A stretch of DNA of 28,502 bases from a virus: IMG/VR virus record IMGVR_UViG_3300043673_000012, positions 1-28,502 of that record. One strand, given 5' to 3'. Below, one piece after another: positions 6,386-22,908 of the stretch. The notes under the pieces were generated by a model, which was not told the DNA's origin, did not search any database, and saw nothing but the letters and a program-made list of their open reading frames with translations. The position numbers and the translations under genes were made by a program. The stretch's first letter is position 1. The number at the start of each line of letters is the position of its first letter.

Positions 6386-6603
6386 GTACCTACAAACTTC
6401 CGTGCGGCTGCATCGTGCAGCGCCAGTCCGACAACGTCGAGCGCGTGATCCAGCAATGCGATTGCTGTCAAGCCGAATTCGAATCATCCGCAACGGCGCC
6501 GGCGCACCCGGCGGTGCAACGTTGCGGGAGTGCAGCGACTCATGATGGGCTGACATCGCCCGCGTCTGGCCCGGACGAAACTTCGCTGCAGGGCATTTCG
6601 TGA
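6382..6603 (+). CDS. small Cys-rich zinc-ribbon-like protein
   Basis: 73 residues starting MSTYKLPCGCIVQRQSDNVE. CGC at 8-10 and CDCC at 26-29 form a likely zinc-binding pair, like short phage zinc-ribbon proteins; the rest is Ser/Pro-rich and probably disordered. Coupled by ATGA to the preceding gene. Function unknown. Confidence 0.6.
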   Translation: MSTYKLPCGCIVQRQSDNVERVIQQCDCCQAEFESSATAPAHPAVQRCGSAATHDGLTSPASGPDETSLQGIS

Positions 6604-6800
6604 TGGCCTCGACCACGCCCAAGCTTGACGCGCCGGTCGCCGAGCTCACCACTGAGCTGCGCCATATCGATGCGCGCCTGACGCTCTCGGCGGATCTGGA
6701 TCCGGACAGCACATCGCTCGAATCAAAACTTCGCGCCACGCAGTTTCGCGCGCGCGTTCGACAAACCCTCAAGGAACTGGAGATTGCCAAATGCAAATGA
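6603..6800 (+). CDS. small helical hypothetical protein
   Basis: 65 residues from the ATG at 6603; a GTG one codon earlier overlaps the previous stop by GTGA and is equally possible. Mostly helical and charged (about residues 14-60), perhaps a coiled coil. It overlaps the next gene by 10 bases. No family recognised. Confidence 0.55.
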   Translation: MASTTPKLDAPVAELTTELRHIDARLTLSADLDPDSTSLESKLRATQFRARVRQTLKELEIAKCK

Positions 6801-7000
6801 TCTGTATCTCAGCCGCGCTCCTGGTCGCGGCCGTGCTCGCCTATTTCGCAGCCACCGCGTTCGCCAAGTGGGCGCTGCGCAGGTGGGATGCTCACGAGGT
6901 TTTCAGCCACGCGCGAAAGGTCGAGCGCGAGGCGAAACGGCGCGAGAGCGCGATGCGCCGATATTCGATGACAGATCTGCGCCCTGCGCGAAAGTCCTGA
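6791..7000 (+). CDS. small membrane-anchored protein
   Basis: 69 residues with an N-terminal membrane helix (about 3-27: ICISAALLVAAVLAYFAATA) and a long, very basic cytoplasmic tail (KVEREAKRRESAMRRYSM). A short untranslated gap of 42 bases follows before the annealase gene. The role is unknown; the basic tail could bind nucleic acid at the membrane. Confidence 0.6.
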   Translation: MQMICISAALLVAAVLAYFAATAFAKWALRRWDAHEVFSHARKVEREAKRRESAMRRYSMTDLRPARKS

Positions 7001-7042
7001 TAGAGCAGATTTCAGCTTTAAAAACCAGCTAGGGGAAAATTG

Positions 7043-7921
7043 ATGGCATCACAGCAGAAGAAATCAACGGAGCTCGCGCCGCGAGATCCTACGGGCACTC
7101 AAGTCGCGACCGTCGACGTCGGCCGATCGACCGGCCTGGTCGCACAGTTCGCCGCGAAGTACAGCATCGATGCGGACAAGATGCTGGAGACCTTGAAGCA
7201 GACCGCCTTCAAGCAGCGCCCGCCGAAGGGCGGCGGCGAGGCGAAAGTTGTCACCAATGAGCAGATGATGGCCCTGCTCGTGATTGCCAAGGAATACGGG
7301 CTAAACCCGTTCACGCGCGAGATCTACGCATTCCCGTCCGAGAATGGGATCGTGCCGATCATCGGTTTCGATGGGTGGGTGCGCCTCATCAATCTGCGCC
7401 CCGAGTTCGATTACATGGAGATTCGCACCGCTCCGGACGGCACCGATCAGGACGAGTATTTCGTCGAGGTCGAGATCAAGCGAAAGGATCGAAGCCGCCC
7501 CACGGTGGTTCGCGAGTACCTGAAGGAGTGCTATCGAGACACGAATCCGTGGAATGAAATGCCCAAGCGCATGACGCGCCACAAGGCGATCATCCAGTGC
7601 GGGCGCATCGCTTTCGGCTACGCCGGCGTGTTTGACCCGGACGATGCGGAGCGCGTGTATGCGAATGCTATCGATGTCACGCCGCGCGCCGGCAAGCCGG
7701 AAACCCGCGCGCCGCAGGCGAAGCAGATTCCCGTCTCCCAGGATCCGCCAGTCGAGCGGATAACGCTGGACCAGGCGACGATGCTCGCGGATAAGCTGAA
7801 AGAGGAAGGCGTTGGCTTAAGTCTGCTGCTCGCGAGGTTTGAGGTAAACAGCCTCGAGGAGCTGCCGCTCGCAAGTTACGAGGCCGCGATGGTGGTCATC
7901 GACCAGGCGAGCGCGGGGTAA
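7043..7921 (+). CDS. bet: Bet/RecT-family single-strand annealing protein
   Basis: 292 residues from an ATG with an AGGGGA site. The family signature is clear: a conserved core (KVVTNEQMMALLVIAKEYGL), NPFTREIYAFP, then GIVPIIGFDGWVRLI, RPEFDYMEI and a C-terminal RMTRHKAIIQCGRIAFG. Bet coats ssDNA ends made by a partner exonuclease and anneals them to complementary strands, driving phage recombination. The exonuclease gene starts directly after the stop. The C-terminal 80 residues look like a linker plus a small helical domain. Length is near the usual 260-300. Confidence 0.95.
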   Translation: MASQQKKSTELAPRDPTGTQVATVDVGRSTGLVAQFAAKYSIDADKMLETLKQTAFKQRPPKGGGEAKVVTNEQMMALLVIAKEYGLNPFTREIYAFPSENGIVPIIGFDGWVRLINLRPEFDYMEIRTAPDGTDQDEYFVEVEIKRKDRSRPTVVREYLKECYRDTNPWNEMPKRMTRHKAIIQCGRIAFGYAGVFDPDDAERVYANAIDVTPRAGKPETRAPQAKQIPVSQDPPVERITLDQATMLADKLKEEGVGLSLLLARFEVNSLEELPLASYEAAMVVIDQASAG

Positions 7922-8530
7922 ATGGTCAAAGCCTCGCTGTCCTTCGACGTCGAGACTCACACGTACCGTTATGGCGGGCGCGTGGTTCCGAGCGTCACTC
8001 AGGTCCTTCGCGCGATCGATAACTTCGATCGCGTGGATCCTGAGCTGCTCGAACGTTCGCGTAGGTTCGGCCAGCACGTCCACGCGGCGACGGATCTGTT
8101 CGATCGCGGGATTCTCGATGAGGAGAATCTCGACATCATGCTGGTGCCGCATCTGAACGCCTACAAGCTGTTTTTAAGCGAGACAGGTTTCGTCGTGACG
8201 CATTCGGAGCAGCAGATCTACAACGCTCGGCAGCGCTATGCCGGCACGCTCGATAAGCGCGGGACCTGGAAGGGATCGACCTGGCTGCTGGACCTCAAAA
8301 GCGGCGCTGTGCCGCGCGCGGTCGGCCTGCAGACGGCCGCATATCGCGAGGCGTGCGATGAGAAACCGAAGCGCCGCCTTTGCCTGCAGCTGAAGCGCAA
8401 CGCTTACAAATTAATCAAATGCGAGGAGGCGTCGGACTGGTCGTATTTCGTCAGTTATTTGAACGTCCACCGCTTCAATCATAGGGAAATCTTCAATGTC
8501 AGCGAAAACGAAACCAGCGCAGTCGCCTGA
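7922..8530 (+). CDS. PD-(D/E)XK exonuclease, partner of Bet
   Basis: 202 residues. A RecB-like nuclease core is visible: E96 (HSEQQIY), D111 in AGTLDKRG, D124-L-K126 in LLDLKSG, and a following Q137-x-x-x-Y141 helix typical of exonucleases. It fits the 5'-3' resection enzyme that feeds Bet, as lambda Exo feeds Beta. The N-terminal PSVTQVLR motif is shared with other phage RecB-like nucleases. It starts at the base after the bet stop and overlaps the next gene by 35 bases. Confidence 0.88.
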   Translation: MVKASLSFDVETHTYRYGGRVVPSVTQVLRAIDNFDRVDPELLERSRRFGQHVHAATDLFDRGILDEENLDIMLVPHLNAYKLFLSETGFVVTHSEQQIYNARQRYAGTLDKRGTWKGSTWLLDLKSGAVPRAVGLQTAAYREACDEKPKRRLCLQLKRNAYKLIKCEEASDWSYFVSYLNVHRFNHREIFNVSENETSAVA

Positions 8531-9335
8531 GCCCGCCGCGGCCGCGGTGGCAACTAACTTAGTGCACCTGTCGATCCCGACGCCGGCGGGCGATGAGGCC
8601 TCGGAATCCAATAAGGCGCTGATCTACGCCGAGGGGCTCGCAGTCGTTTCATCGTCGGATTCCGCCAAGGCCCAGGAAGTGCGCGCTCAGCTCAACACGC
8701 GGATCAAGACGCTGGACGATGCGCGTAAGACGCTCACTCGCCCGATCGATGCGGCCAAGAAGACCATCATGGATTTCTTCGCCGGTCCGATCGCGACGTT
8801 GACCAAGGCGAAGGGAATAGTTGATGCGAAGGTCATCGCGTGGGATGCAGAGCAGGAGAGGCTGCGAAGGATCGAGCAGGCCAGGCTCGACAAGATCGCC
8901 GAGGATGAGCGCAAGCGCCTGCAGGCGATCGCCGATGACGCCAAGCGAAAGGCAGACGCCGAGGCCGAGCAGCTGCGCAAAGACGCAGAGGCGGCCGCCG
9001 CGGCCGGTCGCGCCGAGGAGGCCCTCAAGCTGCAGGCTAAAGCGACGCGCGTCGAGGAGAAGGCGGATGCGAAAGTCGAGACTTTCGAGACGCGCGCCTC
9101 TTCCGTCGTCGCACCGATCGCGCAGGCGAATACGGCGCGCGTCGCCGGTACGCAGTTTCGCGATCACTACGAATTCGAGATCCTTGACGCCACCAAAATC
9201 AATGCCTCATTCATGACGCCGGATCTCGTGAAGATCGGCACGGTCGTCAAATCCTTAAAAGGCGAGGCGGTGGGCGTGGTCGGCGCCGGGCTCAAGGTGA
9301 CGAGCCGCAAGATCATGGCGAGCGGGCGCACGTGA
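8496..9335 (+). CDS. coiled-coil protein of the recombination cluster
   Basis: 279 residues. The N-terminal Ala/Pro-rich tail is followed by a very long charged Ala/Lys/Glu helix (about residues 50-205), clearly a coiled coil, then a compact C-terminal domain (about 215-275) beginning with TRASSVVAPIAQ. It overlaps the exonuclease gene by 35 bases. Similar coiled-coil proteins occur beside Bet/exonuclease pairs in other phages; the function is not established. It could scaffold the annealase or modulate host RecBCD, but that is guesswork. Confidence 0.75.
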   Translation: MSAKTKPAQSPEPAAAAVATNLVHLSIPTPAGDEASESNKALIYAEGLAVVSSSDSAKAQEVRAQLNTRIKTLDDARKTLTRPIDAAKKTIMDFFAGPIATLTKAKGIVDAKVIAWDAEQERLRRIEQARLDKIAEDERKRLQAIADDAKRKADAEAEQLRKDAEAAAAAGRAEEALKLQAKATRVEEKADAKVETFETRASSVVAPIAQANTARVAGTQFRDHYEFEILDATKINASFMTPDLVKIGTVVKSLKGEAVGVVGAGLKVTSRKIMASGRT

Positions 9336-10018
9336 GCGCCGTCATTCTCGACACCGAAACGACCGGCACGGGTGACGAAGACAAGATCATCGAGTTGGCG
9401 CATACGCAGATGCTGGCCACGCCGCGACCGCTCGATGATTTCAGCGAAGTGAATCACTTCGCCTATCGCTATTCGTGCGATCGCCCGATCAGCTTGGGCG
9501 CCATGGCGACGCATCACATCATTGAGGAGGACCTGCAGGGCTTCCCGCCGTTCATCGGATGGGATCCGGTCGCCGAGGGCATCGAGTACATCGTCGGCCA
9601 TAACGTCGATTTCGATTGGCGAATGCTCGGGAAACCGAACGTAAAGCGCATCTGCACGCTCGCTCTCGCGCGATCGCTTTGGCCGGCCGCTGACTCGCAT
9701 TCCTTGGGCGCTATGGTCTATCACCTGATGATCGACAAGCGCGACGCGCGCGACATGGTCAAGGGCGCGCATTCGGCCGTGGCCGATATCCGGATGATCT
9801 TCGACGTCCTGTTGCCCGAGATCCAGATCAAGCTGCTGCCGCGGGGTGCCACCTGGGCTGAGCTTTGGGAGATCTCCGAGAGCGCTCGGATCCCGAAGGT
9901 CATGCCATTCGGCAAGCACAAGGGCGTGCCGCTCGGCGACGTGCCGCCAGATTACAAGCGCTGGCTGCTCAATCAGCCGGACGTCGATCCCTATCTCGCA
10001 AAGGCATTGCGGGCTTAA
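9332..10018 (+). CDS. DnaQ-like 3'-5' exonuclease with C-terminal DUF3820-like domain
   Basis: 228 residues from a GTG that overlaps the previous stop (GTGA). The DEDDh exonuclease motifs are present: D7-x-E9 in DTETTG, H90-N-x-D93 in GHNVDFDW, and H147-x4-D152 in HSAVADIR. A separate C-terminal segment (191-215, FGKHKGVPLGDVP) matches the small domain often fused to phage and bacterial ExoX-like enzymes. It likely trims single-stranded DNA in recombination or repair alongside Bet. The csrA gene follows 18 bases after the stop. Confidence 0.9.
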   Translation: MSAVILDTETTGTGDEDKIIELAHTQMLATPRPLDDFSEVNHFAYRYSCDRPISLGAMATHHIIEEDLQGFPPFIGWDPVAEGIEYIVGHNVDFDWRMLGKPNVKRICTLALARSLWPAADSHSLGAMVYHLMIDKRDARDMVKGAHSAVADIRMIFDVLLPEIQIKLLPRGATWAELWEISESARIPKVMPFGKHKGVPLGDVPPDYKRWLLNQPDVDPYLAKALRA

Positions 10019-10033
10019 AAACCAAGGAGGTTT
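10019..10033 (+). promoter_or_regulatory. hairpin over the csrA ribosome-binding site, candidate CsrA target
   Basis: AAACC-AAGGA-GGTTT: a perfect five-base stem with a GGA-containing loop. CsrA binds GGA in hairpin loops, and the AAGGAGG ribosome-binding site spans the loop and the 3' stem. The hairpin lies directly between the exonuclease stop (TAA at 10016-10018) and the csrA ATG. Bound CsrA would block ribosomes, giving self-limiting translation. Confidence 0.7.
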
Positions 10034-10036
10034 CCT

Positions 10037-10213
10037 ATGTTGATTCTCACCAGGCGCGCCGGCGAGACGATCCGGATTGGCAAGGACGTCGAGATCACCG
10101 TCATGGCGATCAATGCGAGCCAGGTCCGCATCGGCGTCAAAGCGCCGCGGGACGTCGTCGTCGATCGCGAGGAAGTTGCGATCCGCAAAGAGAATGAGGT
10201 CAAGCAGGCGTGA
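10037..10213 (+). CDS. csrA: phage CsrA/RsmA RNA-binding regulator
   Basis: 58 residues, matching full-length CsrA over its core: [15 protein letters not shown], then [13 protein letters not shown] and VDREEVAIR. The RNA-contact residues L4, R6, V42 and R44 are kept; position 43 is Asp instead of the usual His. CsrA is a homodimer that binds GGA hairpins and controls translation and stability of host mRNAs for carbon metabolism, motility and biofilm. Unlike most genes of this operon it does not overlap its neighbour upstream and has a full AAGGAGG site. The following gene overlaps its stop. A phage copy may reset host expression during infection or lysogeny. Confidence 0.93.
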
Positions 10214-10419
10214 GCGCCGAATCAATCAACTGGATCGCTGTTGCCGAGGAGCTGCCGGACGCTGATACGACGGTCCTCGTCTTCGCGCCAGGCATGGGTG
10301 AACCTGTCTGGCTCGGATTCTATGACGGCGTTTACTGGTTCGGCGTCGACGCCGTCGAGTATGGCGATGAGCTGCCGGAAGTCACTCACTGGGCAGACAT
10401 GCCAGCTGGTCCGCGATGA
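10210..10419 (+). CDS. DUF551-family protein
   Basis: 69 residues from a GTG overlapping the csrA stop. The pattern [20 protein letters not shown], then WLGFYDG and [12 protein letters not shown], matches the DUF551 family of small phage and bacterial proteins, whose role is unknown. It is translationally coupled to csrA, so its output should follow csrA's. Confidence 0.78.
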
Positions 10420-10964
10420 ATCCCGCTGCCCGAGGTTTGCGTCCGATTTCGGAGCTCGGCTCATCGCGACCGCACGGCAATCGCCTGCGCTACATGGCAG
10501 GCTGCAAATGCTTTAAGTGCCGCCGATCGAACAGCGACTATGAACGAATTCGCCAGGCTGCGCGCCTCGCCGGCGATTGGAATGGCATCGTGGATGCCGG
10601 GCCGGCGCGGGCCCACCTTTTAAAGCTCTCGCGCGCCGGCGTCGGCCAATGGTCGGTGGTCGCGGCGACCGATATCGCGCGATCCATGATCCACGAAATC
10701 AAGAACGGCGACCGCCTGCGGATCCGCGCGAGGACCGAGCGCAAGATCTTAAGTGTAGGTCTCGATCAGCGCGCGGACCGCTCCTTCGTGCCGGCGAGAA
10801 AGGCTCTGCGGCTGATACGCCAACTGGTCGATGAAGGCTTCACGAAATCAGCGCTGGCCGCAAAGCTTGGCTACAAGACGCGCGCGATACAGCTTAAGCG
10901 TGGACGGATCACGGCGCGAAACGAGCAACGCATCATTGCGCTGCATAGGAAATTAACAACATGA
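10416..10964 (+). CDS. putative DNA-binding protein with Cys pair and helix-turn-helix regions
   Basis: 182 residues. The N-terminal segment HGNRLRYMAGCKCFKCRRSN (20-39) is a GCxCxxCR motif known from small phage and actinobacterial DNA-binding proteins. It is followed by two likely helix-turn-helix regions (about 85-115 and 128-165, the second with TKSALAAKLGYKTRAIQLKR). Very basic throughout. It may regulate transcription within the phage programme; the exact role is unknown. Confidence 0.7.
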   Translation: MNPAARGLRPISELGSSRPHGNRLRYMAGCKCFKCRRSNSDYERIRQAARLAGDWNGIVDAGPARAHLLKLSRAGVGQWSVVAATDIARSMIHEIKNGDRLRIRARTERKILSVGLDQRADRSFVPARKALRLIRQLVDEGFTKSALAAKLGYKTRAIQLKRGRITARNEQRIIALHRKLTT

Positions 10965-11047
10965 AAAGGCTGTTCTGCTGGCTGTTCGGCCACCGGCCCG
11001 GGAAATACGTAGTCACGCGCTGTCGGCGCTGCGGAGATTATCTGTGA
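10961..11047 (+). CDS. DUF1660-like tiny protein
   Basis: 28 residues: MKRLFCWLFGHRPGKYVVTR then CRRCGDYL. The LFGH, GKYVV and CxxC pattern resembles the short DUF1660 prophage family. ATGA overlap upstream and GTGA overlap downstream support it. Its one CxxC, with His11 and Cys6, could bind zinc. No function is known. Confidence 0.6.
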   Translation: MKRLFCWLFGHRPGKYVVTRCRRCGDYL

Positions 11048-12756
11048 GCTTTAAGTTTCCGCAGGGTGTGCTACTACAGCACACGGCCGTACTAGGCAAG
11101 ACCGGATCCGGCAAGACCTCAACCGCGAAACTCATGGTCGAGCAGGTCGTCGCTGGAGAGGCGCGCGTGTGCGTGCTCGATCCCATCAAATCCGACTGGT
11201 GGGGCTTAACCTCGAGCGCGGACGGCAAGCGCGCAGGCCTTCCCTTTCAGATCTTGGGCGGTCCCCGCGGGCACGTGCCGCTGCACAGCTCATCCGGCAA
11301 AGCTATTGGCGAGATCGTCGCGAGCGGCGCCCTGCCGCTCTCGATCATCGACATGGCGGATTTTGAGCCGGGCGGCCAGGCGAAATTCTTCGTCGACTTC
11401 GCGCCGACGCTGATCCGCAAGATGCGCGGGGTCGTTTACCTCGTTATCGAGGAGGCGCACCTATTCGCACCGAAAGAGCGATCGGGCATCGGCTCGGAAA
11501 ACATGTCAATCCATTGGGCGAAGACAATCGCCACGGCCGGCCGCTCGAAAGGGATCAGGCTTATCCTGGTCACGCAGCGCACGCAGGCCTTGCACAACGC
11601 ATTGCTCGGATCCTGCGAAACGATGATCGCGCATCGCATGTCGGCGCCGGCGGACCAAGAGCCGGTCGTCAAGTGGCTGAAAGCGAACACGGATAAGGCG
11701 ACGACCGAGAAGGTCGCGAGCTCGCTCTCCTCGATCCCGACCGGATCCGGCTGGCTCTGCAGCGGCGAGGAGAAGATCTTCGAGTTGGTCAAGTTCCCGC
11801 GGATCCACACTTACGATAATTCGGCGACGCCCACGGGCGACGCGGCGATCGGCGAGGTCAAGACCGCCTCGGTGGATCCGGAGAAGCTGCGCGCGATTAT
11901 CGGCGATGCGGTCAAAACGGCAGAGGCCAATGATCCAGCGGCTCTTAAGAAACAGATCGCGGAGCTGCAGCGGCAGAACAAGAATGCAAACGACCAGCTC
12001 GCCAAGTTGGGCGATTTGAAATTCTCGCCAGACGTCGATGCAATTCGCAAAGAGGAATGGCACAAGGGTTTGACGGCAGGACGCGCCGAGATCGTCGACC
12101 AACTGGAGGTCTATTACGGCTCGCTCGAATCCTGGTCAAAGGGGATGCCGCATCCTCCGGTGTTCAAGATCTCGGCAGCGCCGCCGATCAAGGCCCCACA
12201 CAGCGCGGCGCCCAAAGCGGGTTTAAACGGCTTAAAACAGGTTAAAACGGCTCCGGCAAAAGTCCCACACAACGGCGACGCGCGCATCAGCCGGCCGCAG
12301 CAAGTCATCCTCGACCAGCTCGCCGTCTTGAAGGATCGGGATATCTACCCGGCCTCGAGGGCGACGCTCGCCGCCTTTTGCAAGGTCAGCCCGTCGAGCA
12401 GCGGCTATGAGAAAAACTTAAGCACGCTGAAAACGATGGGCATGCTCGAATATCCCCGCCAGGGCGAGGTCGCATTCACTCATGAGGGCGAGGCCTCGGC
12501 CGCGGCGCCGTTCGACGATGGCACGCCGCCGGCGGACTTCTGGCTGGCGATAGTCAATGAGCCGAAGGCGAAGATCTTGCGCGCCCTCATCGATGAGCAC
12601 CCCACCGCCATGGCGCGCGTGGCGATCGCGCAGGGCGCCGAGGTCTCAGAGAACAGCTCGGGCTTTGAGAAGAACCTCTCGCAGCTGAAGACGCTCGGCG
12701 CGATCGAATATCCGATGTCAGGCGTCGTCGCGCTGACCAGGTACGTGATGCCATGA
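11044..12756 (+). CDS. HerA-like P-loop ATPase with duplicated winged-helix tail
   Basis: 570 residues. Walker A is GKTGSGKT (18-25), and Walker B lies in VVYLVIEEAHLF (130-141) with a double Glu. The later LILVTQRT is a sensor-like motif of the HerA/VirD4 group (DUF87). These hexameric motors translocate on duplex DNA. A coiled-coil linker follows at about residues 290-325. The C-terminus holds two copies of one winged-helix unit (about 418-480 and 505-567): SSGYEKNLSTLKTMGMLEYP in the first and SSGFEKNLSQLKTLGAIEYP in the second. There is no partner NurA-like nuclease next to it. It may move DNA in recombination, segregation or defence evasion. Confidence 0.85.
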   Translation: MSFKFPQGVLLQHTAVLGKTGSGKTSTAKLMVEQVVAGEARVCVLDPIKSDWWGLTSSADGKRAGLPFQILGGPRGHVPLHSSSGKAIGEIVASGALPLSIIDMADFEPGGQAKFFVDFAPTLIRKMRGVVYLVIEEAHLFAPKERSGIGSENMSIHWAKTIATAGRSKGIRLILVTQRTQALHNALLGSCETMIAHRMSAPADQEPVVKWLKANTDKATTEKVASSLSSIPTGSGWLCSGEEKIFELVKFPRIHTYDNSATPTGDAAIGEVKTASVDPEKLRAIIGDAVKTAEANDPAALKKQIAELQRQNKNANDQLAKLGDLKFSPDVDAIRKEEWHKGLTAGRAEIVDQLEVYYGSLESWSKGMPHPPVFKISAAPPIKAPHSAAPKAGLNGLKQVKTAPAKVPHNGDARISRPQQVILDQLAVLKDRDIYPASRATLAAFCKVSPSSSGYEKNLSTLKTMGMLEYPRQGEVAFTHEGEASAAAPFDDGTPPADFWLAIVNEPKAKILRALIDEHPTAMARVAIAQGAEVSENSSGFEKNLSQLKTLGAIEYPMSGVVALTRYVMP

Positions 12757-12965
12757 ACCTGATCGAAGGCATCCAAGCCGAATGCAACCGCATCCGCGAC
12801 GAATCTATCCCTGCCTATTCGGATCCGATGCTGAGAGGCGCTGGCGCCTTTGCAATCGCGATGATGAAAGCAGATATCACGATGGGCGAACAGGCGATAG
12901 CGAGCGGCGACGTCGTGCTCATGGTCAAGGTGCTGGAGCGGCTCAAATCTACGGGAAAGCTATGA
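12753..12965 (+). CDS. small hypothetical protein
   Basis: 70 residues starting MNLIEGIQAECNRIRDESIP, helical, coupled by ATGA to the ATPase gene and to the next gene. It has no recognised family. Its position suggests it could be a small partner of the ATPase. Confidence 0.6.
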   Translation: MNLIEGIQAECNRIRDESIPAYSDPMLRGAGAFAIAMMKADITMGEQAIASGDVVLMVKVLERLKSTGKL

Positions 12966-13135
12966 TGCCCGAGCATAGAACGTGCGTGATGTGTAGCGCT
13001 CACGTTCCACGCGGCGAGCCTGCGCCGATCTGCAGCGATGAATGTTGGGATCAATACATGACGCTGCGGGCGCAAATCGAATCGATGCAGGGTCTTTTCA
13101 AACCAAAACAAGGGGAAATGCATGGCGACCGATGA
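12962..13135 (+). CDS. small zinc-finger-like protein
   Basis: 57 residues. C8-x2-C11 and C24-x3-C28 (CVMC, CSDEC) form a probable zinc site, as in short phage treble-clef or FYVE-like fingers. A helical tail follows. The start overlaps the previous stop (ATGA) and the gene overlaps the next by 14 bases. Function unknown. Confidence 0.65.
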   Translation: MMPEHRTCVMCSAHVPRGEPAPICSDECWDQYMTLRAQIESMQGLFKPKQGEMHGDR

Positions 13136-13514
13136 TCAGATTGAGCAGGAGATTCAAGACAAGGGATTGACCGCGCCGCGAGTGACGCCGGCCGCTATCG
13201 ATGCGGCGATCGCGCATGAGTTTTACTTCGTCGCCGGCGACGGGGTTTACGGCAGTGCGCGCAAGAACGGAGACGAGAGCGTTCAGTGGTTTCCGCACTC
13301 GCTCGATCTGCTAACCATTTGCGTGCTGGTATTGGAGAACGGGTTCACGGTGACAGGCGAATCGGCCTGCGCCTCGCCTGAGAACTTCAACGCCGAGCTC
13401 GGGCGCAAGATCGCGCGGGAGAATGCCAAACAGAAGATCTGGCCGCTCGAGGGGTATTTGCTCAAGCAGCGGCTTGCCGATGCACGTGTGGCCGCCGGCT
13501 CTCGAGCAGGGTAA
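13122..13514 (+). CDS. phage gp49/66-family protein
   Basis: 130 residues with an AAGGGG site. Strong family marks: VTPAAIDAAI, LENGFTVTGESACA, PENFNAELGRKIARE, NAKQKIWPLEGYLL. This matches the 'N4 gp49 / Sf6 gene 66' family, found in many phages. The role is not known with certainty. Family length (about 100-130) fits. Confidence 0.85.
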   Translation: MATDDQIEQEIQDKGLTAPRVTPAAIDAAIAHEFYFVAGDGVYGSARKNGDESVQWFPHSLDLLTICVLVLENGFTVTGESACASPENFNAELGRKIARENAKQKIWPLEGYLLKQRLADARVAAGSRAG

Positions 13515-17337: not shown

Positions 17338-17733
17338 TTATTTCCTTAACAGCGCCATTGCGAAACCGCCGGCCGCAATCAGCGCGGCCGCCCAGTTGCG
17401 AATACTATCGAGTCTCTTGTCAGTTCCCTCTTTCATAGATTTAGAAAAATCCTCGAATGCCTTCTTCGAGGCCTTGCGGTTCACGCTCTGCACGACCTTG
17501 GCGAGCTCGTGCCGCTGTTCTTTCATCTCAGCGATCAATCCGTCGACGAGCTTGTTTTGCAGCGTGAGGTATTCTGCCGTCGGATTGCTCCCCGGGCTCA
17601 AGGCCTTCATGCCGCGGCGGGTCGATTCGATATCGGCCGCGATCGTCTCGTCGAAGTCGTCCAGCAGTAAATCGGTCTCCGGTTCGACGAGCTGGTCCTG
17701 ATAGACGCGCGGCCAGCGGGAGAGCTTGCTCAC
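17338..17733 (-). CDS. helical protein with C-terminal membrane segment
   Basis: 131 residues. A long helical body is followed by a hydrophobic C-terminal segment (NWAAALIAAGGFAMALLRK, about 113-131), giving a tail-anchored protein. The phage context suggests a lysis or superinfection role. ATGA overlap with the upstream gene. Confidence 0.62.
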   Translation of the reverse strand: MSKLSRWPRVYQDQLVEPETDLLLDDFDETIAADIESTRRGMKALSPGSNPTAEYLTLQNKLVDGLIAEMKEQRHELAKVVQSVNRKASKKAFEDFSKSMKEGTDKRLDSIRNWAAALIAAGGFAMALLRK

Positions 17734-18041
17734 GGCGCCGGATCGTCCTTCCAGCCGAAGATCTCTGCGAGCGTGTTATAGCCGCCGATCGCCGTTACGA
17801 GACCGCCGAAAACGATGAGCATCGTCCCGCTGCCTGGCAGGCTCTTGGCCAGCGCCGGGTGCGAGGTGATGAATCCCTCGAGGGATCCTGCCGCCATTGC
17901 CAGGCCGCCGGCGGTCTTCGTGCGATGTCGCCAGGCCCATCGAGCTTTCGCTTTCGCAAAGTCGGCCGCGACCCTTGCTTTCAGTTTCGTGAAGCCTGCG
18001 GCCCGCTTGCAATGCTCCAGCACCAAGGGGACGGCTATCAT
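17730..18041 (-). CDS. holin candidate
   Basis: 103 residues from the ATG at 18041, which overlaps the peptidase stop (ATGA). Two hydrophobic stretches (about 44-62 and 72-90, the second GTMLIVFGGLVTAIGG) are separated by a short loop. The position directly after the endolysin and the size suit a holin, which forms membrane holes to release the endolysin. Membrane prediction is by eye, so other membrane proteins here remain alternatives. Confidence 0.6.
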   Translation of the reverse strand: MIAVPLVLEHCKRAAGFTKLKARVAADFAKAKARWAWRHRTKTAGGLAMAAGSLEGFITSHPALAKSLPGSGTMLIVFGGLVTAIGGYNTLAEIFGWKDDPAP

Positions 18042-20438: not shown

Positions 20439-22718
20439 TTACTCCGTGAAGATATCGACCGACGACTCGGTATCGATTTGCACGCCGGTCTCATCGGTGA
20501 GGCCGAGCGAGTTGTTTGTGAAAGCGACGGGGATGACCCAGTGCTCGAGGCTCGTGAGGCCATTGCATTGCGCCTCGAGTTGCAGGGTGAGCGTATCGCT
20601 CGCGCCGGAATTGATGAGCACCGAAGTCCCCGAGATCGGCGAGAAGGTCGAGAGCAACACGGCGCTCGAGGAATAGACCCGCACGGTGTAAGTCGTGCCA
20701 GCCTCCGGCGTGACCGTCGCGTGCGTCTGGTCGATCATCGTGTCGGCCTGCGTGATCCGATTGCGCTCGATCCATGAGAGGGTGAAAGGCCCCGTCGCTC
20801 CGGCTGAAAGATCGTAGCGTGTGCCGTTGATTTTCGGAAAGGCCGGCGGAAAGGGGAGCAGCGCGCGGCCGGCGATCGTCACAGGGATATCGGTTGCGAG
20901 CGATATGTCGAGCTGCCCGAGCGGCGCGTTCGGAAGCGGCTTGTTGTGCACGACCTCACTCGCCGTATATTGCTCGCCGTCGGATCCCACATAGCCGTCG
21001 ATGAAAAACACTTGAACGCCGCCGGCATGTGGGTTCGCGACCGTATCGACGCACCCTCGGGCGATCGTGCAAGCCCCGGTCAGCGGGTTAAATGCCGTGA
21101 TATTGACGATCTCGTTCGCACCGCCTCCATCGACGATGAGCGCGGCGCATGGAAGGGGTGCATGTGAAATATCGATAAGCGTGTTGAGCGTCATCGTCGT
21201 ATCGAAAGCGCCAATCGAGACGGCGATCTTTCCTGCCGGCGAGAATTGCTCAGTCTGCTGAGCCGCAAAGAATGCAGCGCCGCCGACCTCGGTCGCGAGC
21301 GCATAGCTTTGACAGAGCGAATCTGGACGCGCGACGAGCACCCCGTCATATCCGACCAGCGGCGGCAGTGTATTCGCGGTCGATGCGCCGAGCACTTTGT
21401 ACACGGTGCGAAAATCCGCCTCATAGGCCTGGAATAGGACCGGCGCGACGGGGTGATTGTTCGGCGGGATCCAGCCGGAGGTCTGCGGCGCGATGTAAGT
21501 ATCGCTTGGCAGCGAATAAATATCTTGCATGATCGACAGGGTGATCGACCCATCGAGCAGCGTGCCGGTGTCGACCTCGCCCACGCGCATGACCATCTGA
21601 TCGATGCCAGCGGCGGGAAACGAAAAGACGAACACATCGCCAGGCGTGAGCAGGTACGCGCTGCGCTTGAATTTTCCGGTCAGGCGCTTGAGCGGAACCG
21701 TGGTCGCCTGCAGATCCCTTTGACAAACTCGCGCGGCGAGATCCTGCGTCGCAATCCCGGTATAGGTGCGCGTGTCGGTGACGACGACGCCTTGGGACTG
21801 GATCGAGCCCAAGGCCTGCAGCGCAATCGACTGCTCCTGTTTGGCGAGCGGATCGTAGTACTTGACCCAAAGCTCATTCACCGCGCCGGTGAGTGTCGAA
21901 TCGTCCTTTTCGGTGAGCTCGACGACATCCGACTGCGTAAAGACGGGAAGCGTCGAAACATCGTAGCCGCCGCGAATGAGCTTGAACTGAAAGAGCCCGG
22001 TGACCGGCGAGGTGACGAGCACGCCGGCGGTGTAATTCATGATCGTCTGCAGGAATGAGTCGATCGTGTCCTGCCGATTCCAAAGCAGGCACAGGCCCAT
22101 GCCTTCGTTAAAGAGCTGCGTCGCGCTCGCCGTAAAGACGGTCAGATCCAAGGCCGAGGGCGGATATCCCATACCCCAATCTGGATTGGTGAGTACCTCG
22201 TAAACGATGTGAGCCGGATTCATGCCGACGACGCCGCTCGAGAGGGTGACCGCGCAGGTCGATGGATTCCAGGGCGCCCCGCCGCTCCAGCCTTTAAGAG
22301 CTCGGCGGAATCTGAAGCTCCACGGCTTCGGGTACGGGTTATTGGCGCCTATCTGGCCGCTTTGGGAAAATCCGGTGAGCAACGTGCCGATCGAGCCGCT
22401 GCCGTTGAATACCCCGGTTAGGATCCCGCGATAGCCAGGCTGAGGCTGTCCCTGTACCGCCGTGAGGTAAGCATTTGCCCCCTGCGTCGCATCCCCCATC
22501 ATGATGTCGAAATTTCCGTAGATCCCGCCCTCCTTTTGCGGGCCGCCGAATAGGTTCGGTGCATTGATGAGAATCGTCCCGCTCGAGGTCACGGAGCCCA
22601 AGAAGGCTGTGCGATCGCCGGCGCGGATCTCGAGGAACTCATCGACTGGTCCGTGCGAGAGGCCGAAATGCAGCCCCAGGTAATAGGTGTAGCCTGCGAT
22701 CTGAGCGCTTTTACCCAT
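20439..22718 (-). CDS. large tail-tip protein (host-specificity type)
   Basis: 759 residues from the ATG at 22718; a GTG two codons earlier is also possible. The start (MGKSAQIAGYTYYLGLHFGL) and position after a BR0599-type gene match the large tail protein of many siphophages and of gene-transfer agents, which builds the tail tip and contacts the receptor. The N-terminal ~350 residues resemble the tip core; later regions with alternating short domains (about 450-640) look like immunoglobulin-like repeats. It overlaps the upstream small gene by eight bases. The final 40 residues may contact the fibres. Confidence 0.82.
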   Translation of the reverse strand: MGKSAQIAGYTYYLGLHFGLSHGPVDEFLEIRAGDRTAFLGSVTSSGTILINAPNLFGGPQKEGGIYGNFDIMMGDATQGANAYLTAVQGQPQPGYRGILTGVFNGSGSIGTLLTGFSQSGQIGANNPYPKPWSFRFRRALKGWSGGAPWNPSTCAVTLSSGVVGMNPAHIVYEVLTNPDWGMGYPPSALDLTVFTASATQLFNEGMGLCLLWNRQDTIDSFLQTIMNYTAGVLVTSPVTGLFQFKLIRGGYDVSTLPVFTQSDVVELTEKDDSTLTGAVNELWVKYYDPLAKQEQSIALQALGSIQSQGVVVTDTRTYTGIATQDLAARVCQRDLQATTVPLKRLTGKFKRSAYLLTPGDVFVFSFPAAGIDQMVMRVGEVDTGTLLDGSITLSIMQDIYSLPSDTYIAPQTSGWIPPNNHPVAPVLFQAYEADFRTVYKVLGASTANTLPPLVGYDGVLVARPDSLCQSYALATEVGGAAFFAAQQTEQFSPAGKIAVSIGAFDTTMTLNTLIDISHAPLPCAALIVDGGGANEIVNITAFNPLTGACTIARGCVDTVANPHAGGVQVFFIDGYVGSDGEQYTASEVVHNKPLPNAPLGQLDISLATDIPVTIAGRALLPFPPAFPKINGTRYDLSAGATGPFTLSWIERNRITQADTMIDQTHATVTPEAGTTYTVRVYSSSAVLLSTFSPISGTSVLINSGASDTLTLQLEAQCNGLTSLEHWVIPVAFTNNSLGLTDETGVQIDTESSVDIFTE

Positions 22719-22908
22719 TGGCACGCTCGCGCGCGATCGCCGCGACTTTCAAGGCCATCGCATCGCCCGTCTCTTCAAACCTCTCGACCGGAACGCCATT
22801 GCGGATGAAATCGAGCACATCGATTCCGTGAGCTTTAAGCCACACGCGTGCGCCAGAGCTGCAGTAGCGAGCAGCATGTATGTCCTGCATTTTGACCGTG
22901 ATCGTCAC
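22711..22908 (-). CDS. small tail-module protein
   Basis: 65 residues from a GTG overlapping the previous stop (GTGA); the later ATG gives 59. Contains AARYCSSGARVWLKAHGIDV and a C-terminal ALKVAAIARERANG. Similar small proteins are found next to J-like genes. Function unknown, perhaps an assembly factor. Confidence 0.6.
   Translation of the reverse strand: MTITVKMQDIHAARYCSSGARVWLKAHGIDVLDFIRNGVPVERFEETGDAMALKVAAIARERANG

Follow-up and report, generated by a model that had tools for sequence, protein, structure and literature searches.

The window, by which we mean the whole 28.5-kb virus record analysed here, carries on its plus strand an operon in which RecT, two exonuclease-family genes, a DnaQ-like exonuclease, csrA, a DUF551 gene, a gene without assigned function and a HerA-like ATPase follow one another. 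RecT, at 7040, starts the listed forward operon, and the two genes matching phage exonuclease families lie at 7922 and 8496. Directly 5' of csrA, a gene at 9332–10018 encodes a DnaQ/exodeoxyribonuclease-like (ExoX-like) 3'-5' exonuclease, which matches PF00929 and phrog_192 and whose NCBIfam matches fall under their cut-offs. Downstream of csrA come DUF551 (10210–10419; PF04448, 35.8 bits), the unassigned gene at 10416 and the HerA-like ATPase (11044–12756), all on the plus strand; a serine recombinase (14797) follows the operon, and the minus strand carries a tail protein gene (20439–22724). Several operon junctions overlap (8496/8530, 9332/9335, 10210/10213, 10416/10419 and 12753/12756), whereas csrA starts 18 nt after the exonuclease stop codon (10016–10018), in agreement with an earlier, sequence-only reading of this DNA that had set overlapping genes against a separate csrA leader. 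The same reading had called DUF551 coupled to csrA: the DUF551 start does overlap the csrA stop by 4 nt, but that DUF551 follows csrA output is a further step, drawn from this one overlap.

A second phage (L002) shares 90% DNA identity with the window over 7033–12965; its CsrA protein is identical, and positions 9980–10147 are without mismatch. Among the fetched loci, L002 is the only one with DUF551 directly 3' of csrA, and a viral scan with the DUF551 protein returned one relative, L171, on the contig of L002. Besides L002, the only csrA–DUF551 pairing among the fetched loci was seen in L455, which has another csrA with Asp at residue 43 and, ~0.8 kb downstream of it, a DUF551 relative (51% identity). 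Relatives of the HerA-like ATPase were found near csrA in the viral contigs L112, L362, L364 and L374 (27–46% identity); within ~2 kb of csrA, L266 has a homologue of the 10416 gene, and L111 and L112 have homologues of the 13122 gene. Judged by gene neighbourhood, the ATPase and these homologues hint at a shared early-gene module. The phages matched by RecT and the tail proteins have mixed hosts. For the exonuclease, the genomes in the class of G001 yield weak matches only, in 58 of 274 (best 28.8 bits); in the order of G001, RecT is matched in 2/296 (best 48% identity) and CsrA in 146/196.

csrA itself (10037–10213, plus strand) is an intact frame of 58 aa. Its product matches PF02599 at 71.3 bits against a cut-off of 27, over profile positions 1–49 of 53, and such a full-length match above the curated cut-off places it in the CsrA/RsmA family. 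It also matches phrog_9500 ("CsrA-like regulator") and passes NCBIfam NF002469 (75.4 vs 73), while missing TIGR00202 by 3.3 bits (66.8 vs 70.1), and it aligns with solved CsrA/RsmA chains, at best over residues 1–55. L4, R6, V42 and R44 are all kept, and residue 43 is Asp; across the 22 rows of alignment A1, L4, R6 and R44 are invariant and V42 nearly so. We take R6 and V42 to be RNA-contact residues of CsrA as well. The complete CsrA with these four residues, as previously described from the sequence, thus stands. According to passages of PMC7652899, E. coli CsrA and RsmE depend critically on L4 and R44. We conclude that csrA is a real, ordinary phage-borne member of the CsrA family, and we infer from its similarity to the family that the protein would form the usual interlocked dimer and bind GGA RNA. 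The gene is preceded by the Shine-Dalgarno sequence AAGGAGG (10024–10030, plus strand), the only full copy among the 45 listed gene starts of the window.

Phage csrA is already known, and the present gene is another phage-borne CsrA. Passages of the literature report csrA in 30 of 2517 phages (Sobrero and Valverde 2020, PMC7366521), describe an IMG/VR survey of phage csrA that proposed an anti-CRISPR role through host CRISPR-Cas expression and found the presence of phage csrA to correlate with csrA in the host genus (PMC8450108), and treat the csrA of Burkholderia phage JC1 as a moron gene (PMC9144972). As far as these passages go, our protein resembles the published phage CsrA/RsmA in being small, complete and close to bacterial CsrA, but it comes from a different phage and a RecT/exonuclease operon neighbourhood. 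The passages on phage CsrA in the three papers do not discuss the structure of the csrA leader, and searches of the open-licence PMC literature listed no paper whose title or opening abstract lines concern a phage csrA leader or its control. One fetched record, L444 (CAKLQH020000034.1, named Acinetobacter phage MD-2021a), has the gene order thrA-csrA-rnhB and in this resembles part of a bacterial chromosome.

It had been suggested that Asp43, in place of the usual His, may tune RNA choice, and our comparison does not support this. Among the csrA genes of the leader clusters, 27 of the 148 viral ones have Asp at residue 43 and 117 have His; for genome contigs the numbers are 5 of 46 and 41. Because some search seeds were themselves Asp43 relatives, these counts are not population frequencies. 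The closest cellular relatives that we found (L031–L035, 70–76% identity) lie on MAG contigs of soil and bog Gammaproteobacteria; all five have Asp43 in a chromosomal csrA, share the segment VDREE[IV]A with the phage protein, and come from genomes with 3–7 csrA matches each. Hence, Asp43 is natural variation, a lineage trait and no phage peculiarity. Unlike the window, the leaders of L031, L033, L034 and L035 have no GGA in the scanned position, and that of L032 has it in a weak 3-pair hairpin. As regards copy number, G443, in the order of G001, has ten csrA-like places in a 4-Mb genome, and the other matching genomes of that order have one to four among the matches listed.

In the csrA leader, a hairpin AAACC-AAGGA-GGTTT can be drawn (10019–10033, plus strand) that begins at the first base past the exonuclease stop, ends three bases before the csrA start and places GGA 10026–10028 in a five-base loop. 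This much of the sequence-only reading is correct; that the leader folds as this hairpin is not borne out, as a competing fold wins in short contexts. In a 28-nt stretch (ViennaRNA) the hairpin reaches -3.3 kcal/mol, compared with -4.3 kcal/mol for the minimum-energy fold (10020–10041), in which AGGA 10025–10028 pairs with UCCU 10033–10036 and AAC 10020–10022 with GUU 10039–10041, the latter pairing reaching past the csrA start codon. The two folds are mutually exclusive. The model probability of the five hairpin pairs is 0.09–0.63 over six stretches of 25 to 200 nt, and that of AGGA/UCCU 0.28–0.86 over seven stretches; the inner hairpin pairs have 0.60–0.63 with 30 or 40 nt of flank on each side, 0.28 with 60 and 0.21 with 100. 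Passages of PMC7652899 state that most SELEX ligands and the RsmE structures show an ANGGAN hexaloop, and that burying GGA in pairing lowers RsmE binding. The competing fold does bury the GGA, which counts against autorepression. The leader loop is a pentaloop, so the earlier wording that CsrA proteins bind "exactly such sites" was too strong. Elsewhere in the window, the start of the gene at 17338–17733 is covered by another drawable hairpin, GCTGGA-AGGACGA-TCCGGC (17338–17763, minus strand; -6.9 kcal/mol, AGGA in the loop, one G-U pair).

GGA 10026–10028 overlaps the Shine-Dalgarno sequence, as in a CsrA-autoregulated leader, but this does not discriminate, and the motif alone proves nothing, because a strong Shine-Dalgarno sequence contains GGA anyway. 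The precedent is E. coli, where, according to passages of PMC7652899, CsrA represses its own translation via four sites, one of them over the Shine-Dalgarno sequence, which agrees with the earlier statement that host csrA regulates itself. The csrA of the window resembles E. coli csrA in this overlap; by the same passages the E. coli gene has five promoters besides its four sites, whereas the phage gene lies in an operon behind a gap of 18 nt that contains one GGA, with one further candidate inside the gene. That candidate, TTGGC-AAGGAC-GTCGA (10077–10092, plus strand; codons 14–19; -2.3 kcal/mol with G-U pairs in the stem), has an ANGGAN hexaloop, and its AAGGAC (10082–10087) is the only other ANGGA between -80 and +150 of the csrA start. 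Its spacing from the leader site, about 55 nt, lies inside the range of 10–63 nt over which a CsrA dimer can bridge two sites (passages of PMC7652899). Nine ANGGA hairpins of -2 kcal/mol or below were counted on the whole plus strand, and two of them lie here, 58 nt apart; the second candidate depends on the Lys16-Asp17 codons, and a downstream ANGGA is rarer in viral csrA than in controls (9/97 vs 97/461). By analogy with E. coli, the GGA inside the Shine-Dalgarno sequence is a reasonable candidate CsrA site, and autorepression through it is plausible. A comparison with Rfam for a CsrB-like decoy RNA gave no match at gathering level and, out to E 5, three weak matches, all of them unrelated. 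The minus strand at 61–151 has a weak match to the PA5194 RNA thermometer (26 bits vs 60, E 0.26), probably by chance.

Altogether, we consider it probable that the locus encodes an ordinary phage CsrA in an early recombination/replication operon, with the usual RNA binding and, more tentatively, an autorepression that the hairpin could help. The dimer would bind GGA sites near ribosome-binding sites and, in line with what has been proposed for phage CsrA in the literature, would alter the translation of host mRNAs, phage mRNAs or both to the benefit of the phage. Accumulating CsrA might then bind the GGA of its own Shine-Dalgarno sequence in competition with the ribosome, perhaps bridged to the second site 55 nt downstream, and the leader hairpin could help this binding.

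It is also quite possible, if somewhat short of an even chance, that the hairpin is a by-product of a strong Shine-Dalgarno sequence whose GG happens to pair with a preceding CC, without any special control. A GGA hairpin of three pairs is present at 117 of 463 control phage genes with a strong Shine-Dalgarno sequence, and folded stretches of 28, 41 and 71 nt are not clearly better than shuffles (z = -0.43, 0.61 and 1.18). Against chance speaks the length of the stem: a GGA loop closed by five Watson-Crick pairs is present in 11/463 of the controls (2.4%) and in 1.5% of 20,000 leader shuffles keeping AAGGAGG, and of all genes it is csrA that has them. Seven of the 45 listed starts of the window have a strong Shine-Dalgarno sequence, and among these csrA alone exceeds three pairs. 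The five-pair hairpin is thus unusual, before any correction for its having been picked from the window by eye.

Comparison of leaders beside csrA in related phages, which the sequence-only reading had set as a test, gave a mixed outcome that is on balance against the hairpin. We counted a hairpin where a strong Shine-Dalgarno sequence had its GGA in a loop of 4–8 nt closed by at least three Watson-Crick pairs. The controls were mechanically picked open frames of at least 100 aa, taken at the first start with a strong Shine-Dalgarno sequence. In the first set, 168 viral csrA loci gave 89 leader clusters, 66 of them eligible; named phage records (L444 to L447) were left out of the leader counts, as were the gap lengths before viral csrA from the analysis, many values of -7 looking like chance frames. 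With an energy threshold of -2 kcal/mol the difference was not significant (9/51 viral csrA vs 30/302 controls, p = 0.14). With at least three pairs, a measure chosen after the data were seen, hairpins were present in 29/66 viral csrA against 86/352 genes other than csrA in these loci (p = 0.0013), and in 12/19 of the Asp43 subset (p = 0.0006), a proportion that also argues against chance.

Since the measure had been picked after viewing the data, further loci were fetched with other queries. The first hold-out started from 97 new loci (5 too short, 35 training-like and 11 mutually alike removed; 46 kept, 31 eligible) and the second from 61 (7 without start, 1 short, 39 earlier-like and 1 duplicate-like removed; 13 kept, 10 eligible); for L485 the start rule was apparently one codon late. 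Hairpins were found in 9/31 and 0/10, together 9/41 against the 117/463 controls, and even this includes shifted relatives counted twice (for example L398 and L402, both hits), because leaders were de-duplicated without gaps over 30 nt. The enrichment was thus not repeated, which favours chance, and a general enrichment of GGA hairpins at viral csrA was dropped. Asp43 leaders of the hold-outs had the hairpin in 0/5 (pooled 12/24), a re-test resting on five leaders because the eligible leaders of the first hold-out include no Asp43 gene. Pooling all sets gives 38/107 (one-sided p = 0.023), a difference owed to the first set. Nor was there enrichment in csrA leaders taken from genome contigs (5/28), which would serve as a positive control if these hairpins were important.

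Close to the window, the relatives L004, L005 and L014 have two pairs only, the L112 leader has a three-pair hairpin, and in L266 the gene upstream of csrA, homologous to the 10416 gene, runs 7 nt into it, which leaves csrA no separate leader. The hairpin thus seems neither conserved nor required. Some viral leaders keep a similar loop with different stems (GACC-AAGGA-GGTC in L016 and L140, CGACC/GGTCG in L139, AAATCC/GGATTT in L119), which speaks against chance, and so the hairpin may be used in a minority of viral csrA leaders or in part of the Asp43 lineage.

A simpler rival to autorepression, possible but on the unlikely side in our judgement, is translational coupling without CsrA, in which ribosomes ending the exonuclease open the leader folds, so that csrA translation keeps pace with that of the exonuclease. 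No base separates the stop codon from the hairpin, and given the size of a ribosome footprint a terminating ribosome would cover the hairpin. Both leader folds occlude part of the Shine-Dalgarno sequence, the minimum-energy fold of the 28-nt stretch hiding it; neighbouring operon genes overlap by 4 nt, and no promoter-like site was found in 6500–13200 with the sigma-70 consensus, the only one searched. Coupling is weakened by the leader folds, which at -3 to -4 kcal/mol are weak, and by AAGGAGG, which is probably sufficient for initiation by itself.

The proposal that a dedicated CsrA-binding hairpin confines phage CsrA to a burst and in this way determines how much DUF551 is made appears improbable. 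Motif and position, the E. coli precedent and the first-set enrichment are in its favour, but that enrichment failed to reappear in the hold-outs, DUF551 stands directly behind csrA in one near relative only among the fetched loci, and a "limited burst" fits poorly with a Shine-Dalgarno sequence that is the longest among the 45 starts listed. Least likely, and in our view very doubtful, is a two-state leader, either UCCU-paired or in the CsrA-type loop, that exonuclease ribosomes would open and that phage or host CsrA would capture at the loop and AAGGAC, shutting translation; if true, the phage would sense its own exonuclease output and the cell's total free CsrA.

For studies of phage csrA, caution is advised with GGA hairpins of three pairs, as about a quarter of control phage genes with a strong Shine-Dalgarno sequence have one, and L444, if mislabelled, inflates the csrA counts in phage collections. 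Returning to the ordinary phage CsrA that we favour, the present case adds an Asp43 lineage with its nearest cellular relatives in bacterial genomes. Such a phage CsrA could reprogramme host mRNAs, including CRISPR-Cas expression, as passages of PMC8450108 propose.
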